Shown here in pieces: positions 57,649-64,000 of a DNA stretch of 64,000 bases. Numbering within the stretch: the stretch's first letter is position 1; each line of letters opens with the position of its first letter. The stretch is from Paracoccaceae bacterium (GTDB lineage: Bacteria; Pseudomonadota; Alphaproteobacteria; Rhodobacterales; Rhodobacteraceae): contig JAFWNM010000029.1 of assembly GCA_017510335.1 (NCBI GenBank), forward strand, positions 1 to 64,000, read 5' to 3'. Under the pieces are notes generated by a model. It saw only the letters and a list, made by a program, of their open reading frames with translations. It did no database searches and had not been told where the DNA came from. The translations under genes were made by a program, and so were the position numbers.

Positions 57649-59541
57649 ATGACCGCCAGACGTTTTCTGACATTCGACATGATGCTACGGTTGTTTCAGG
57701 TCGTGCTGTCCTTCGTGTATGTTGGCTTCCTGCTGCGCCAGTTCTGGCAGCCGGTCGCCCCGTTAGCGGCCGCATCCTTTCATGTTTATATGGCGGTCGC
57801 GCTTGTTTTCGCGTTCAACCCTCTCGACTGGCAGGGCACCGCGAAACGCGCTTTGGGGCGTGTGATCGACCTGTCGGGGCTGTTGCTGTCACTGGGCATA
57901 GCGTGGCTGTATATGGGCGAAATCACCCGGCTTGAACGGCGGTTCGAAATGATAGACCCCGTTCTTGCGCTGGATATCTTTTTGCATGTTGCGGGGCTGG
58001 TGCTGATATTCGAGGCCGTGCGCCGGTCCGTCGGTTGGTCCTTGCTAAGCGTTGTGCTGGTGTTTCTGGCCTATGGGTATTTCGGCTACATGTTCCCCGG
58101 CTGGATGGCTTTCCCGGGCTTCAGCATGGCGACACAGGCAGAACTGATCACCATGCAAACCGAAGGCATTTTTGGCATAACGGCCAGTGCCGCGATAAAT
58201 TTCGTGTTCTTTTTCGTGTTGTTCGGCGCGGTGTTCACCTTCACGGGTGGGGGTGCGCTGTTCATTGACCTGGCCATGCGCATGACCGCCAGGTTGAAGG
58301 GGGGCGCGGCGAAAATGTCGCTTGTGGGGTCGGCGCTGTTTGGCATGGTGTCCGGGTCGGCCATTGCCAACACCACATCGACCGGCGTTCTGACCATCCC
58401 CATCATGACACGCTCTGGTTATACCAAGGATCAGGCGGCGGCGACCGAAGCCATTGCCTCTACCGGCGGGCAGTTGATGCCGCCCATCATGGGGGTCGCA
58501 GCTTTTGTCATGGCCGACATGCTGGGCATTCCCTATGCGACAATCGCCGCAGCGGGGCTGATACCGGCGCTGGCGTTCTACTTCGCGCTGTTTGTCATTG
58601 TGGATTTGCGGGCGCGCAAATACGGCGTGGGCAATGTCGCACCGGAATTGCTGGATATTCCCCCGGTTCTGCCGCGCGTGCATCTGCTGATTGCCCCGCT
58701 GATGATGATTGGCACACTGATCGTAGGGTATTCCGCCGCTTATGCCGCACTTGTGGGCACAGTGGCCGCGCTGGTGGTTCCGATGCTGCGCAAATCAACA
58801 CGCTACAGCCTGCGCGGCCTGTTTGATTGCGTGCTGGAAACCGCCAAGCAAATGGCGTGGATCTCGGCCCCGCTGGCGGCGGTGGGTGTTGTGATGGTGA
58901 TCGCCACACAATCCAACCTTGCGCTGAAATTCGTGCGCCTGCTGTCCGATCTGGGGTCAGGCAATCTGTATCTGTCGCTGATACTGGTCATTTTCGGCTG
59001 CATCATCATGGGCATGGGGTTGCCGACTGTCGCGGCCTATATCATCGGATCGCTGGTTTTCGTGCCCGCGCTGATGGATCTGGGCATTGACCGTTTGGCG
59101 GCCAATCTGTTCGTTTTGTATTATTGCGTGCTGTCAATGGTGACCCCGCCGGTTGCGCTGTGTTCCTACGCGGCCTCGGCCATTGCCAGATCGGATGCCA
59201 GCAAGACCGGGCTTCTGGCCTTTGGGTATTCGCTGGTCATCTTTCTGGTGCCCTTCGGCTTCATCAATGACCCACATATCCTGTGGCAGGGCACAGCGTT
59301 TGAAATTGCAACCGGCGCGGCGGGCATGTTGCTGGCAACCTTTGCCTGGGCAGTGTTCCTGATGGGCTGGTTAAAGGGCGATCTGGGGCGCATTGAACGC
59401 GCGCTGTTTCTGGGGTGCAGCCTTGCATTGGTCCTGTTGCCGACATTGTCACCGGGTTGGGGACTGTCGCTGGCGGGGATTGCCGGCTTGCTGGTCTGGC
59501 GCTTTTGGGTGCGGGGGCGTCTGGCCCTTGCACGATCCTGA
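57649..59541 (+). CDS. Fused TRAP permease (DctQM type)
   Basis: A 630-residue membrane protein. About 160 N-terminal residues make four helices like DctQ. The rest is a DctM domain with GGGALFIDLAMRMTARLKGG, LVGSALFGMVSGSAIANTTSTG, GQLMPPIMGVAAFVMADMLG and the second-half motif VLSMVTPPVALCSYAASA. The DUF3394-like C-terminal tail is short. GCAGGAGGGCC precedes the ATG. Such fusions partner TAXI receptors, as encoded immediately upstream. It is followed after 23 bp by the Asp-box protein gene, so the substrate is probably connected with that protein. Confidence 0.95.
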   Translation: MTARRFLTFDMMLRLFQVVLSFVYVGFLLRQFWQPVAPLAAASFHVYMAVALVFAFNPLDWQGTAKRALGRVIDLSGLLLSLGIAWLYMGEITRLERRFEMIDPVLALDIFLHVAGLVLIFEAVRRSVGWSLLSVVLVFLAYGYFGYMFPGWMAFPGFSMATQAELITMQTEGIFGITASAAINFVFFFVLFGAVFTFTGGGALFIDLAMRMTARLKGGAAKMSLVGSALFGMVSGSAIANTTSTGVLTIPIMTRSGYTKDQAAATEAIASTGGQLMPPIMGVAAFVMADMLGIPYATIAAAGLIPALAFYFALFVIVDLRARKYGVGNVAPELLDIPPVLPRVHLLIAPLMMIGTLIVGYSAAYAALVGTVAALVVPMLRKSTRYSLRGLFDCVLETAKQMAWISAPLAAVGVVMVIATQSNLALKFVRLLSDLGSGNLYLSLILVIFGCIIMGMGLPTVAAYIIGSLVFVPALMDLGIDRLAANLFVLYYCVLSMVTPPVALCSYAASAIARSDASKTGLLAFGYSLVIFLVPFGFINDPHILWQGTAFEIATGAAGMLLATFAWAVFLMGWLKGDLGRIERALFLGCSLALVLLPTLSPGWGLSLAGIAGLLVWRFWVRGRLALARS

Positions 59542-59564
59542 CACTTATCTGGCGGAGAGAATAT

Positions 59565-60683
59565 ATGACACATCCTGAAACAGCCTTCGCTGTCACTGAC
59601 CTGCCCACGTCGCGGGTCCAGAACCACGCATCCTTCTTGTGCGAATTGCCGGATGACACGCTTCTATGCACATGGTTTGGTGGCACAATGGAAGGGAAAT
59701 CCGATATTTCGATTTTCCTGTCCCGGCTTGGCCCCGATGGCTGGTCGCCAGCGCAGCAAATGTCGGATGATGCAGACAGGTCCGAACAGAACCCCGTTCT
59801 GTTTGTGGACCCCGAACAACGCCTTTGGCTGCTATACACTGCGCAACCAGGGGGCCGCCAGAATGACGCGCAAGTGCGGTATCGTGTGTCAGATGACATG
59901 GGCAAAAGCTGGTCCGCACCCAAACAGCTTTTCCCGCAACTGGGGCGTTTCGTGCGCCAGACACCCATTGTGACGGCAGACGGGCGCTGGCTGTTGCCAG
60001 TGTTTCGCTGCCTGAAGCAGGGCGATCTTCCCTGGACAGGCGAAGCCGATGACGCCGCCATCATGGTGTCCACCGATCAGGGCGCAACATGGCACGAACA
60101 CGTCCTGCCAGAATCTGGCGGGTGTGTGCATATGAACATTGTTCCGCTGGACGGCGCAGGGATGGTGGCGTTTTTCCGCAGCCGCTGGGCCGAACATGTC
60201 TATCGCTGCCGGTCCGATGATGCAGGGCGCAGCTGGAGTGTGCCGGAACCTGCGGGCCTGCCCAACAACAATTCCTCGGTTCAGGCGACGCGCCTTGCGG
60301 ATGGGCGCGTGGCGCTGGTCTATAATCATGCCAGCCGCGCCGATGCCGAGGGGCGGCGGGTTTCGCTATATGACGAAATCGAAGATGACAGCGGCACCGA
60401 CCAGCCCCAAGCCCCCGCCGGGCGCGCGTTCTGGGGCGCGCCACGCGCGCCGCTATCGCTGGCGCTGTCATCTGATGGCGGCGAAAGCTGGGAAAAACGG
60501 ATCGATCTGGCCTTCAGCGACGGGTATTGCCTGTCCAACAATTCCGAGGCGCAAATCAACCGCGAATTGTCCTATCCGGCCATCTTGCAAACGCGCGATG
60601 GCCGTGTGCACGTCACCTACACGCATTTCCGCCAGACCATCCGGCACATGATTGTGCCCCAGACGGCGCTGCGCAACGGGTAG
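59565..60683 (+). CDS. Cytoplasmic Asp-box (BNR/sialidase-fold) protein
   Basis: A 372-residue six-bladed-propeller protein with four clear Asp boxes, SDDMGKSW (109-116), STDQGATW (169-176), SDDAGRSW (217-224) and SSDGGESW (302-309). It has an FLCELPDDTLLCTWFGG opening, EQNPVLFVDPEQRLWLLYT, and RELSYPAILQTRDGRVHVTYTH near the end. The start at 59565 follows GGCGGAGAGA; a longer frame overlaps the permease. No signal peptide. It belongs to the bacterial exo-alpha-sialidase-like (BNR_2) family, but an active-site Arg triad cannot be confirmed by eye. It may hydrolyse or lyse an imported glycoside or nonulosonate derivative. Confidence 0.88.
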   Translation: MTHPETAFAVTDLPTSRVQNHASFLCELPDDTLLCTWFGGTMEGKSDISIFLSRLGPDGWSPAQQMSDDADRSEQNPVLFVDPEQRLWLLYTAQPGGRQNDAQVRYRVSDDMGKSWSAPKQLFPQLGRFVRQTPIVTADGRWLLPVFRCLKQGDLPWTGEADDAAIMVSTDQGATWHEHVLPESGGCVHMNIVPLDGAGMVAFFRSRWAEHVYRCRSDDAGRSWSVPEPAGLPNNNSSVQATRLADGRVALVYNHASRADAEGRRVSLYDEIEDDSGTDQPQAPAGRAFWGAPRAPLSLALSSDGGESWEKRIDLAFSDGYCLSNNSEAQINRELSYPAILQTRDGRVHVTYTHFRQTIRHMIVPQTALRNG

Positions 60684-62440: not shown

Positions 62441-62839
62441 GGTGGTTGGTCGCGCGTTGTGGCAGCATCTGCAGGTGAACGGAACGGGGCACCCGTTTTT
62501 CAAGCGCGTGCTGGTGGGCCGCCTTGCACCTGCTGTCAAGCACGTTACAGCGGAACCGGCGGGGGCGCGCTTGTGTTCTCAGCGGGGCCAAAGCTTGGTC
62601 TTGCGCCCTTCATCGCGCGCTGCGCCGTATTTGTAAACTTGAAAACCCAATATTTCTGTTTTGAACGTGGCTTTCTTTGGCCTTGTTCCCATGGCCGTCC
62701 GTATCGCCCTATAAAAAAGAAGAATATGCCCGCAGCCTTAGGGGCGCGACAATGAAGAAAATCGCTGACAAATTTGGACAGTTTTCAAACTGATGCCAGT
62801 TCTACCAGACACCCCGGCAGTGCTGAACAGCCTGTCCCC
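62441..62839. other. 399-bp intergenic region without a supported gene
   Basis: It lies between the EamA gene and the end of the NdmC-like gene. Small frames (for example 62459-62755 on the + strand) have no recognisable protein or ribosome site. The part 62630-62790 is AT-richer, with ATAAAAAAGAAGAATATG near 62710. I see no palindrome of note. Confidence 0.5.
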
Positions 62840-63685
62840 TCATGCCCCCGTCGGGCCAAGCGTGGTGCCATAGACGAAGCCCTTTTCCTTCAGCCAGCGC
62901 CGATAGGCGATGGATGACGCATCGGCGCGGGTGGGCGTTTCCAGACGCGGTTCCAGCGGCAATAACCGTGGGCGCTGGTTTTCCAGAATGATGCGGTCTT
63001 GCAAAAATATGACCTGCTGAAACCCGATCAGGTCGCGTTGGTGCGATGCATTGTCAATCAGGAACATCATTGCATGCGCACGGCATAGATCAGGCGCCAT
63101 TGGTTGAACAAACAGACAGATCACATCCCAGCGGTCCGGGTCTGACGGGCAGGTTTTATACAGCATCACCACCAGCGGGCGCGCAACACGATACATATAG
63201 CGCGTGTCAATCGCATCCGTGGCCGAAAGCGCGGCTTTGGGTTGCACAAACTTGCAATCCGTGGCCCACACCTCGTCCACATCACGCCGAATTTCGCACG
63301 CGTAGTGCAACACTTCTGTATGGGGTTCCGACCCCAGAATATCAGTATGAACAAACGGAAAATGCGCCATATCCAGAAAATTCTCGACAATACGCAACCC
63401 GGATGCGCGCACTGTCACGCCGCCGCATGCCACATGCCGGCGGTCAGGTTCATCCGCTTCCGCAATCGCGGGCAGTCCGGTGTCTGGGCGGCCCAGCGTT
63501 GCCCAAAGATGGCCAAAGCCCAGCATATGCTGGACAGGCTGGCCATTGGCATGCACCGCGAAATTCTGCGAAGTGCGCTGAATATCAAGCGATTGTCCAA
63601 GAAGCATATTCTGGCTGGACCCTTGTGGAATTACATCAAGGGGGTCCAGACAATACCATTGGTTCAATGCGGCCTTGTCTGCCAT
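62840..63685 (-). CDS. Rieske-less oxygenase alpha subunit, NdmC-like (N-demethylase family)
   Basis: A 281-residue protein with the catalytic half of a Rieske non-heme iron oxygenase. The mononuclear iron site is ENFLDMAHFPFVH (101-113: bridging Asp105, His108, His113). The N-terminal 70 residues keep the length of a Rieske domain but have no Cys-x-His...Cys-x2-His ligands. This matches NdmC of Pseudomonas putida CBB5 in length and remembered motifs (MAHFPFVHTDILG, LYKTCPSDPDRWD and AYRRWLKEKG). NdmC removes the N7-methyl group of 7-methylxanthine with the reductase NdmD, which carries an extra Rieske centre. No such reductase is in the window. The substrate here may be a methylpurine or another N-methyl compound. 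Confidence 0.85.
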   Translation of the reverse strand: MADKAALNQWYCLDPLDVIPQGSSQNMLLGQSLDIQRTSQNFAVHANGQPVQHMLGFGHLWATLGRPDTGLPAIAEADEPDRRHVACGGVTVRASGLRIVENFLDMAHFPFVHTDILGSEPHTEVLHYACEIRRDVDEVWATDCKFVQPKAALSATDAIDTRYMYRVARPLVVMLYKTCPSDPDRWDVICLFVQPMAPDLCRAHAMMFLIDNASHQRDLIGFQQVIFLQDRIILENQRPRLLPLEPRLETPTRADASSIAYRRWLKEKGFVYGTTLGPTGA

Positions 63686-63960
63686 CTGAGCCCGCCTTGT
63701 TGAAGATCACCACAGCCATCAACCTGCATGGGCGGGGCGCGCAAAGTCAACTGGCGCGACAGCAGGCTGGCCATTGCAAAGATGGCAGTGCGCGCGCCCA
63801 TACGCCCGCTGCACATTATTGATGCGCTGGCGCGCAATTTTCATACATTTCATGCGCGGCAGCATTCGGGGGTTGTTGCGCAGAACACAACACTTGACGG
63901 TTTCCATCCGGCGCCAAAAGCTGCGGGTAAACCTGCCCCGCGCATTCGACGGAACCCGCA

Positions 63961-64000
63961 ATGAACACCACTGTCACCCTTGAATTTCTGGGCGATCTTC
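63961..64000 (+). CDS. Start of an unidentified gene (partial)
   Basis: An ATG at 63961 opens a frame that runs off the right edge (13 codons, beginning MNTTVTLEFLGDL). GGAACC lies just upstream. It is divergent from the NdmC-like gene across 275 bp, in which I see no other gene. Thirteen residues are too few for a family call. The context of an N-demethylase-like gene makes a purine or N-methyl compound enzyme possible. Confidence 0.4.
   Translation, partial: MNTTVTLEFLGDL

Follow-up and report, generated by a model that had tools for sequence, protein, structure and literature searches.

How an oxygenase of the Rieske type can work when it carries no Rieske cluster of its own is the question raised by the gene at positions 62840–63685 of the stretch analysed here (the window), which comprises the first 64,000 bases of contig C23 (C23:1–64000) from a Paracoccaceae genome of 3.61 Mb in 43 contigs; the contig itself extends to 162,444 bases. 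The gene product, C-A, is copy A of a catalytic half related to NdmC. In Pseudomonas putida CBB5, NdmC is a subunit of NdmCDE, a complex that demethylates 7-methylxanthine at N7 (PMC4408171). Our preferred answer, to which we give a probability of about 0.8, is a two-part Rieske oxygenase in which a catalytic half, C, and a cluster half, R, encoded just beyond the right-hand edge of the window, derive from one SxtT-like alpha subunit by complementary decay. The computed basis of this reading consists of the halves themselves, their motifs, their predicted folds, the linkage of their genes and the gene numbers.

The catalytic half

62840–63685, minus strand: C-A, copy A of the catalytic half, NdmC-type; 281 residues, VanA_C domain, no Rieske cluster
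63347–63373, minus strand: codons of D105-MA-H108-FPFV-H113, invariant alignment columns
62996–62998, minus strand: codon of D230, putative third iron ligand, invariant alignment columns
63521–63685, minus strand: residues 1–55, remnant of the Rieske scaffold minus the cluster-binding lobe (from hhalign and the model)

On its sequence, C-A is an NdmC-type Rieske-less oxygenase with a mononuclear-iron catalytic domain. Pfam assigns residues 93–267 to the VanA_C catalytic domain (E 2.5e-20), with a sub-threshold match to KshA_C, and returns no Rieske domain in the protein at E ≤ 1; a search of NCBIfam gave nothing at E ≤ 1. The initial annotation had pointed to a D-x2-H-x4-H motif at residues 105–113 and to the lack of Rieske ligands, and both observations hold. 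The motif is present as D105, H108 and H113, which we take, from general knowledge of Rieske oxygenases, to be the bridging aspartate and two ligands of the mononuclear iron. In an alignment of 41 rows, the ligand columns and 50 further columns are invariant. The Rieske motif is absent from all 98 distinct NdmC-like proteins that were compared, so a sequencing error in this contig is not the reason why C-A lacks it.

The N-terminal region, which had been described as being of normal length, is short. Residue 56 of C-A pairs with residue 112 of SxtDIOX/SxtT (334 residues), and thus some 56 residues, the cluster-binding lobe, are missing from C-A. Alignment of its first 70 residues with the N-terminus of R by hhalign gave a probability of 97.9 and an E-value of 4.3e-13 (0.31 for the reversed control), and the model shows strands in this part, with a VIA alignment of C-A to SxtT from residue 1.

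SxtT and GxtA (SxtDIOX) are Rieske oxygenases acting on saxitoxins, and NdmA and NdmB are methylxanthine N1- and N3-demethylases. The solved structures nearest to C-A by sequence are SxtDIOX/GxtA (1e-20) and SxtT (6.8e-19), followed by NdmB and NdmA (5.7e-7 to 2.9e-6); a profile search with C gave 8.5e-39 for SxtDIOX and 1.5e-15 for NdmA. C-A is 44–46% identical to the NdmC-type proteins of ndm-like operons (loci L016–L019) on plasmids of P. putida MT178, Klebsiella, P. fulva and Paraburkholderia caffeinilytica, which makes the earlier mention of stretches nearly identical to NdmC too strong. These plasmid proteins are called NdmC-type by gene context, an NdmD-type reductase and a glutathione S-transferase (GST) adjoining each; some of the operons also carry complete NdmA/B-type oxygenases and formaldehyde genes.

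The Rieske half

C23 64219–64911, plus strand: R, the free-standing Rieske half, 230 residues, just right of the window

A Pfam Rieske search of the C-A genome identified six places, the best of which, and the sole one on C23, is 64246–64500, within R. The start of R is about 530 bp from that of C-A. The initial annotation had named, as an outcome that would refute it, an ordinary oxygenase family with its cluster on a separate adjacent subunit; the separate subunit is there, but the family is that of NdmC and not an ordinary one. R consists of a full Rieske domain (Pfam E 1.5e-21) followed by about 110 residues that match nothing in Pfam. Over its length, R can be aligned (28–34% identity) with the N-terminal portions of four NdmD-type proteins, each 585–588 residues long. 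These run on into a reductase, whereas R ends after its second domain.

Profile searches with R matched SxtT (1.6e-38), NdmA (5e-26) and the CarAc ferredoxin (1.7e-6). In comparisons of AlphaFold models, R matches whole alpha subunits over both domains, and the 50 structure matches listed are all oxygenases, some of them solved together with their ferredoxin. Models and profile searches alike reveal a resemblance of both halves to whole Rieske-oxygenase alpha subunits, nearest SxtT/GxtA. From its model, R looks like a Rieske [2Fe-2S] cluster domain joined to a shrunken catalytic-type domain without iron ligands.

The motifs are distributed in a complementary manner. The C-x-H...C-x2-H motif occurs in all 84 R proteins (80 distinct) and in none of the 98 C proteins; the bridging Asp/His/His pattern is found in every one of the 98 C proteins and in none of the 84 R proteins. 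These counts follow in part from selection, because ENFLD falls within one of the scan patterns and a Rieske match was taken as R if it scored below 40 bits to C. Six proteins were set aside as carrying both halves, all complete oxygenases in the plasmid loci L016–L019 and none in the 80 genome loci described below. Neither C nor R has both centres in one chain, as a complete alpha subunit does, C having no cluster motif and R no iron motif. The Rieske ferredoxin of three-component oxygenases is a protein of about 100–115 residues that feeds an alpha subunit with its own Rieske cluster. That pattern is not seen here, where C has no cluster and R has 230 residues and a second domain. From sequences and models, we read C and R as complementary half-degenerate paralogues, in each of which the opposite domain has decayed.

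Conservation of the pair

A contig scan yielded at least 515 relatives; the analysis uses the 80 best loci, a sample that leans to close relatives. The loci come from 76 contigs; four contigs each gave two overlapping loci, so that four R proteins are counted twice. R is found in 77 of the 80 loci, with a GST gene within 2 kb of it in all 77, and a BMP protein in 60 of the 80. Where R lies more than 1 kb from C, importer genes or a long operon intervene. The fused NdmD form was found in none of the 80 genome loci. R is missing from L077, L086 and L092, whose genomes each have one near-full-length R on another contig; L077 and L092 are not merely cut loci, as at least 4 kb is present to the left of LysR with no R there.

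Among 14 plasmid loci (L011–L024), six (L016–L021) have the fused NdmD form and six (L012–L015, L022 and L023) an unfused R, L022 together with a separate VanB-type reductase. A search of the plasmid record of L011, chromosome not included, found no R. In the L024 record (NZ_CP036516.1), an R match in two pieces and different frames lies at the other end, at 149178–149842.

A less biased, class-wide sample comprised 385 genomes, our own included. C was found at E ≤ 1e-40 in eight of these, and in each of the eight an R match of near full length lies next to a C gene. Of the 11 C genes, 9 have an adjacent R, the exceptions being the second catalytic half of our genome, C-B, and the second C of genome G326. 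In seven of these genomes, eight loci were read: one is fused (L107), seven are unfused, and all have a GST. The R match of G310 showed stops in a wider alignment; its 197-residue open reading frame (ORF) is open. Within the genus of our genome, C occurs in 3 of 38 genomes, our own among them, from which we take the cluster to be accessory. The gene context of C is kept in many genera; in R. etli CFN 42 the homologous genes are RHE_RS23310–RHE_RS23300.

C and near-full-length R were counted in 16 genomes, with differing thresholds (1e-40 for C, 0.001 in our own genome; 1e-10 or 1e-30 for R). Two C genes accompany one R in nine: our own, G413 (the genome of L086), G422–G425, G426, G427 and G326. 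G422–G425 were picked because two C genes had already been seen on one contig, so this share is not that of a random sample. Two of each are present in G287, and one of each in the remaining six, G403 (79% complete), G099, G169, G193 (fused), G194 and G310.

Trees were built quickly, without bootstrap, and have a long outgroup or root branch. The C tree, of 86 rows, contains 80 C proteins thinned from 107 and six complete oxygenases. Its split of the NdmC group, including C-A and the ndm-operon proteins, from the complete oxygenases has an SH-aLRT value of 99, which bears out the earlier assignment of C-A as an NdmC-like Rieske-less oxygenase; C-A itself lies in a clade apart from the ndm-operon NdmCs. 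The eight C proteins from loci with a fused partner sit in one clade of 11 (SH-aLRT 95), together with three unfused. The remaining 69 were labelled unfused, four of them (L011, L024, L077 and L092) having no R in the locus when labelled. The R tree agrees with this, at lower support (75). As the fused-partner proteins are confined to one small clade, the fused NdmD form is probably derived. Two very diverged NdmC-like proteins on long branches, L114:3672–4574, which has no adjacent Rieske gene, and L072:2164–3111, possibly represent further specificities.

Gene neighbourhood and reductase search

63686–63960, no strand assigned: intergenic stretch between two divergent units (C-A; acylphosphatase-like/Rieske/GST/LysR), from the ORF layout
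C23 63961–64215, plus strand: acylphosphatase-like ORF, 84 residues, opening the R unit; its first 40 bases (63961–64000) are in the window
C23 64908–65540, plus strand: GST, NdmE-like, with GST Pfam domains, directly after R
C23 about 70695–71561, plus strand: C-B, the second catalytic half (copy B), 60% identical to C-A over the match at 70734–71558

The layout makes the intergenic stretch a probable, putative shared promoter region. The acylphosphatase-like ORF is named after annotated relatives, the copy here having no Pfam match; such an ORF lies within 1.5 kb of R in 66 of the 77 R-bearing loci among the 80. Beyond the GST gene come LysR, a two-subunit thiamine diphosphate (ThDP) enzyme, a GMC oxidoreductase and an amidohydrolase. 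C-B is next, and after it the FAD/Mo and 2Fe-2S subunits of a xanthine dehydrogenase (XDH)-type enzyme and an aldehyde dehydrogenase. In the XDH-type enzyme, FAD and molybdopterin are bound by parts of a single ORF of about 1035 residues, not by two subunits, at C23 about 71567–74674 (L007:13568–16675). Farther right lie an 8-oxoguanine-deaminase-family enzyme (above the NCBIfam cut-off), another amidohydrolase, 2-oxoglutarate-dependent (2OG) oxygenases and a BMP-type ABC importer. Extension of the contig to the right thus yields the NdmE-like GST and the xanthine-dehydrogenase-type enzyme that the initial annotation had proposed to look for. Unlike the ndm-like operons, contig positions 62500–95999 contain no NCS2 symporter or formaldehyde-detoxifying gene that could be seen by eye in the ORF lists.

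The NdmD-type reductase that had been expected close by did not appear: none is encoded near C-A and R on C23. A search of the genome with the reductase part of the L017 NdmD-type protein gave two matches, neither of them on this contig. The better one falls in a cytochrome P450 fusion, at its reductase end (contig C43); the other (E 1.5e-7) is a membrane-type oxidoreductase on C9. Read by eye, the P450–VanB-type reductase fusion occupies positions 259–2445 of L105 (contig C43) and has 728 residues. NAD_binding_1 is found at four places in the genome, none on C23, and no VanB/NdmD-type reductase scoring at least 80 bits is present in any of the 80 relatives' loci. Since no dedicated reductase turned up and the best match is the P450 fusion, our guess is that a general ferredoxin/reductase pair serves as electron donor.

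Proposed enzyme and its alternatives

An ordinary Rieske oxygenase moves the electron between alpha subunits, from the cluster of one to the iron of another (PMC12445004). Since C keeps the bridging aspartate and the ligands, and R keeps the cluster, an R–C interface would rebuild this inter-subunit path. C and R would pack side by side like neighbouring alpha subunits; the electron would cross the interface from the R cluster via Asp105 of C to the iron at H108, H113 and D230, where O2 would be activated. The GST-like protein would probably aid assembly, by analogy with the role proposed for NdmE (PMC4408171; PMC13237722). In our genome a single R may serve both C-A and C-B, whose substrates are probably related purine-like compounds. 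What we infer in this scheme is that a complex forms, how the electron travels, the class of substrate and the N-dealkylation chemistry. A wider version, in which each of the two pseudo-alpha subunits retains both domain folds and a single metal centre, transfer is obligatorily between unlike subunits, R is shared in many genomes by two catalytic subunits that differ in specificity, the free form is ancestral to the fused NdmD of caffeine degraders and the whole belongs to a widespread, undescribed purine-type pathway of alphaproteobacteria, we hold at slightly better than even odds.

The neighbours suggest a purine-like ring as substrate: guanine/8-oxoguanine deaminases, a BMP-type importer and an XDH-type enzyme all point that way. 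N2,N2-dimethylguanine is a substrate of certain hydrolases in that deaminase group (PMC13054789), which makes N-alkylated purines a reasonable guess. From the GMC oxidoreductase, the ThDP decarboxylase and the aldehyde dehydrogenase one might suspect that the side chain is larger than methyl or that a carbon step follows later. Cytokinin was considered because rhizobia carry the cluster, and was dropped, as the literature search gave nothing relevant; nor did it for methylguanine demethylation. Pterin and queuine side chains were candidates considered on general grounds.

The presence of NdmC, NdmE and NdmD-N-terminal homologues together with purine-type deaminases and an XDH-type enzyme would also fit a true NdmC, that is, an N7-demethylase of 7-methylxanthine (or 7-methylguanine) in ordinary methylxanthine catabolism, working with an unfused Rieske part of NdmD; the bacterial N2,N2-dimethylguanine-hydrolysing enzymes mentioned above are in keeping with this. 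Methylxanthine N-demethylation by C is possible, but as an account of the locus we find the true-NdmC explanation doubtful. Identity to the ndm-operon NdmCs is just 44–46% and C-A falls outside their clade; C23 encodes no other Rieske protein, and hence no NdmA/NdmB-type oxygenase; the symporter and formaldehyde genes of such operons were not seen, and the cluster carries extra enzymes. Small Rieske ferredoxins are known electron carriers, and R, a separate polypeptide with a Rieske domain, a CarAc match and a gene often several kilobases from that of C, might be no more than one of these, moving between a generic reductase and C, with a C-terminal domain of unrelated origin. This is unlikely given that R is nearest to oxygenase alpha subunits in profile searches, has the fold of whole alpha subunits over both domains with only oxygenases among the structure matches listed, and measures 200–249 residues in 82 of 84 cases (the two overlong ORFs have 289 and 325). 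That C is a degenerate, non-catalytic relic left by loss of the Rieske domain would explain its missing lobe, but it is scarcely credible for a protein with so many invariant columns, ligands included, and a gene context kept in so many genera.

Several observations weigh against the two-part oxygenase that we prefer. The C-terminal domain of R is one: alone, it matches the C catalytic domain weakly (hhalign E 0.0023; reversed control 0.053) and complete oxygenases not at all convincingly (E 0.93, no profile support), and a global profile alignment of R with complete oxygenases gave no convincing register for this part, so that kinship to the catalytic-type domain rests mainly on the fold comparison. 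Linkage is another, R being within 1 kb of C in just 22 of the 80 loci; C-B is on a different contig from R in two of the genomes of L077, L086 and L092, the second C of G326 stands apart from R, and a Roseicitreum plasmid has C without R. The C:R ratio is not constant, being 1:1 in six of the 16 genomes and 2:2 in one. The search for a dedicated reductase came up empty, and N-demethylation does not account for the GMC oxidoreductase and ThDP decarboxylase.

Relation to known systems

Already on record are an NdmC that lacks the Rieske cluster, which resides on NdmD instead, and homologues of ndmCDE in Sinorhizobium and Mesorhizobium; the review reporting them terms NdmCDE 'very unique' (PMC4408171). 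The structure of the complex is given as unsolved (PMC13237722). The system described here resembles NdmCDE in its Rieske-less catalytic subunit, its cluster on another polypeptide and its GST-like third protein. It differs in that the Rieske part, fused in NdmD to an FMN/NADH/ferredoxin reductase, is free-standing with 230 residues, and in that one Rieske protein faces two catalytic paralogues, with no dedicated reductase near and another gene context. The Paracoccus alcaliphilus plasmid locus L022 likewise has separate Rieske, NdmC-like and GST genes, a BMP importer and an 8-oxoguanine deaminase, but its cluster also includes the VanB-type reductase gene, that is, NdmD in two pieces. SxtT and GxtA, the nearest solved structures for both halves, carry the two metal centres in the single chain of a complete alpha subunit. 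NdmA and NdmB share the fold and possibly the N-dealkylation chemistry; they are complete alpha subunits with their own cluster and match less well (for NdmA against SxtDIOX, see above).

In the open-licence literature we found no description of a free-standing Rieske partner, of an alpha-subunit fold for the Rieske half or half-degenerate alpha subunits, or of one Rieske protein with two catalytic paralogues. The loci suggest that NdmCDE is the fused tip of a larger family built from two complementary half-dead subunits, and they mark, in rhizobia, acetic acid bacteria and marine roseobacters, a purine-type gene cluster that is conserved and undescribed. They would provide a natural system with the Rieske centre and the iron site on separable proteins, so that either could be mutated, titrated or exchanged independently of the other, a difficult matter where one chain bears both, and a way to study one electron-carrying subunit serving two oxygenases.

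Left of C-A, at 57649–60683 of the window, a large TRAP-type permease ORF is followed by an ORF with sialidase-like (BNR) features, both read by eye; the stretch looks like a separate catabolic cluster.
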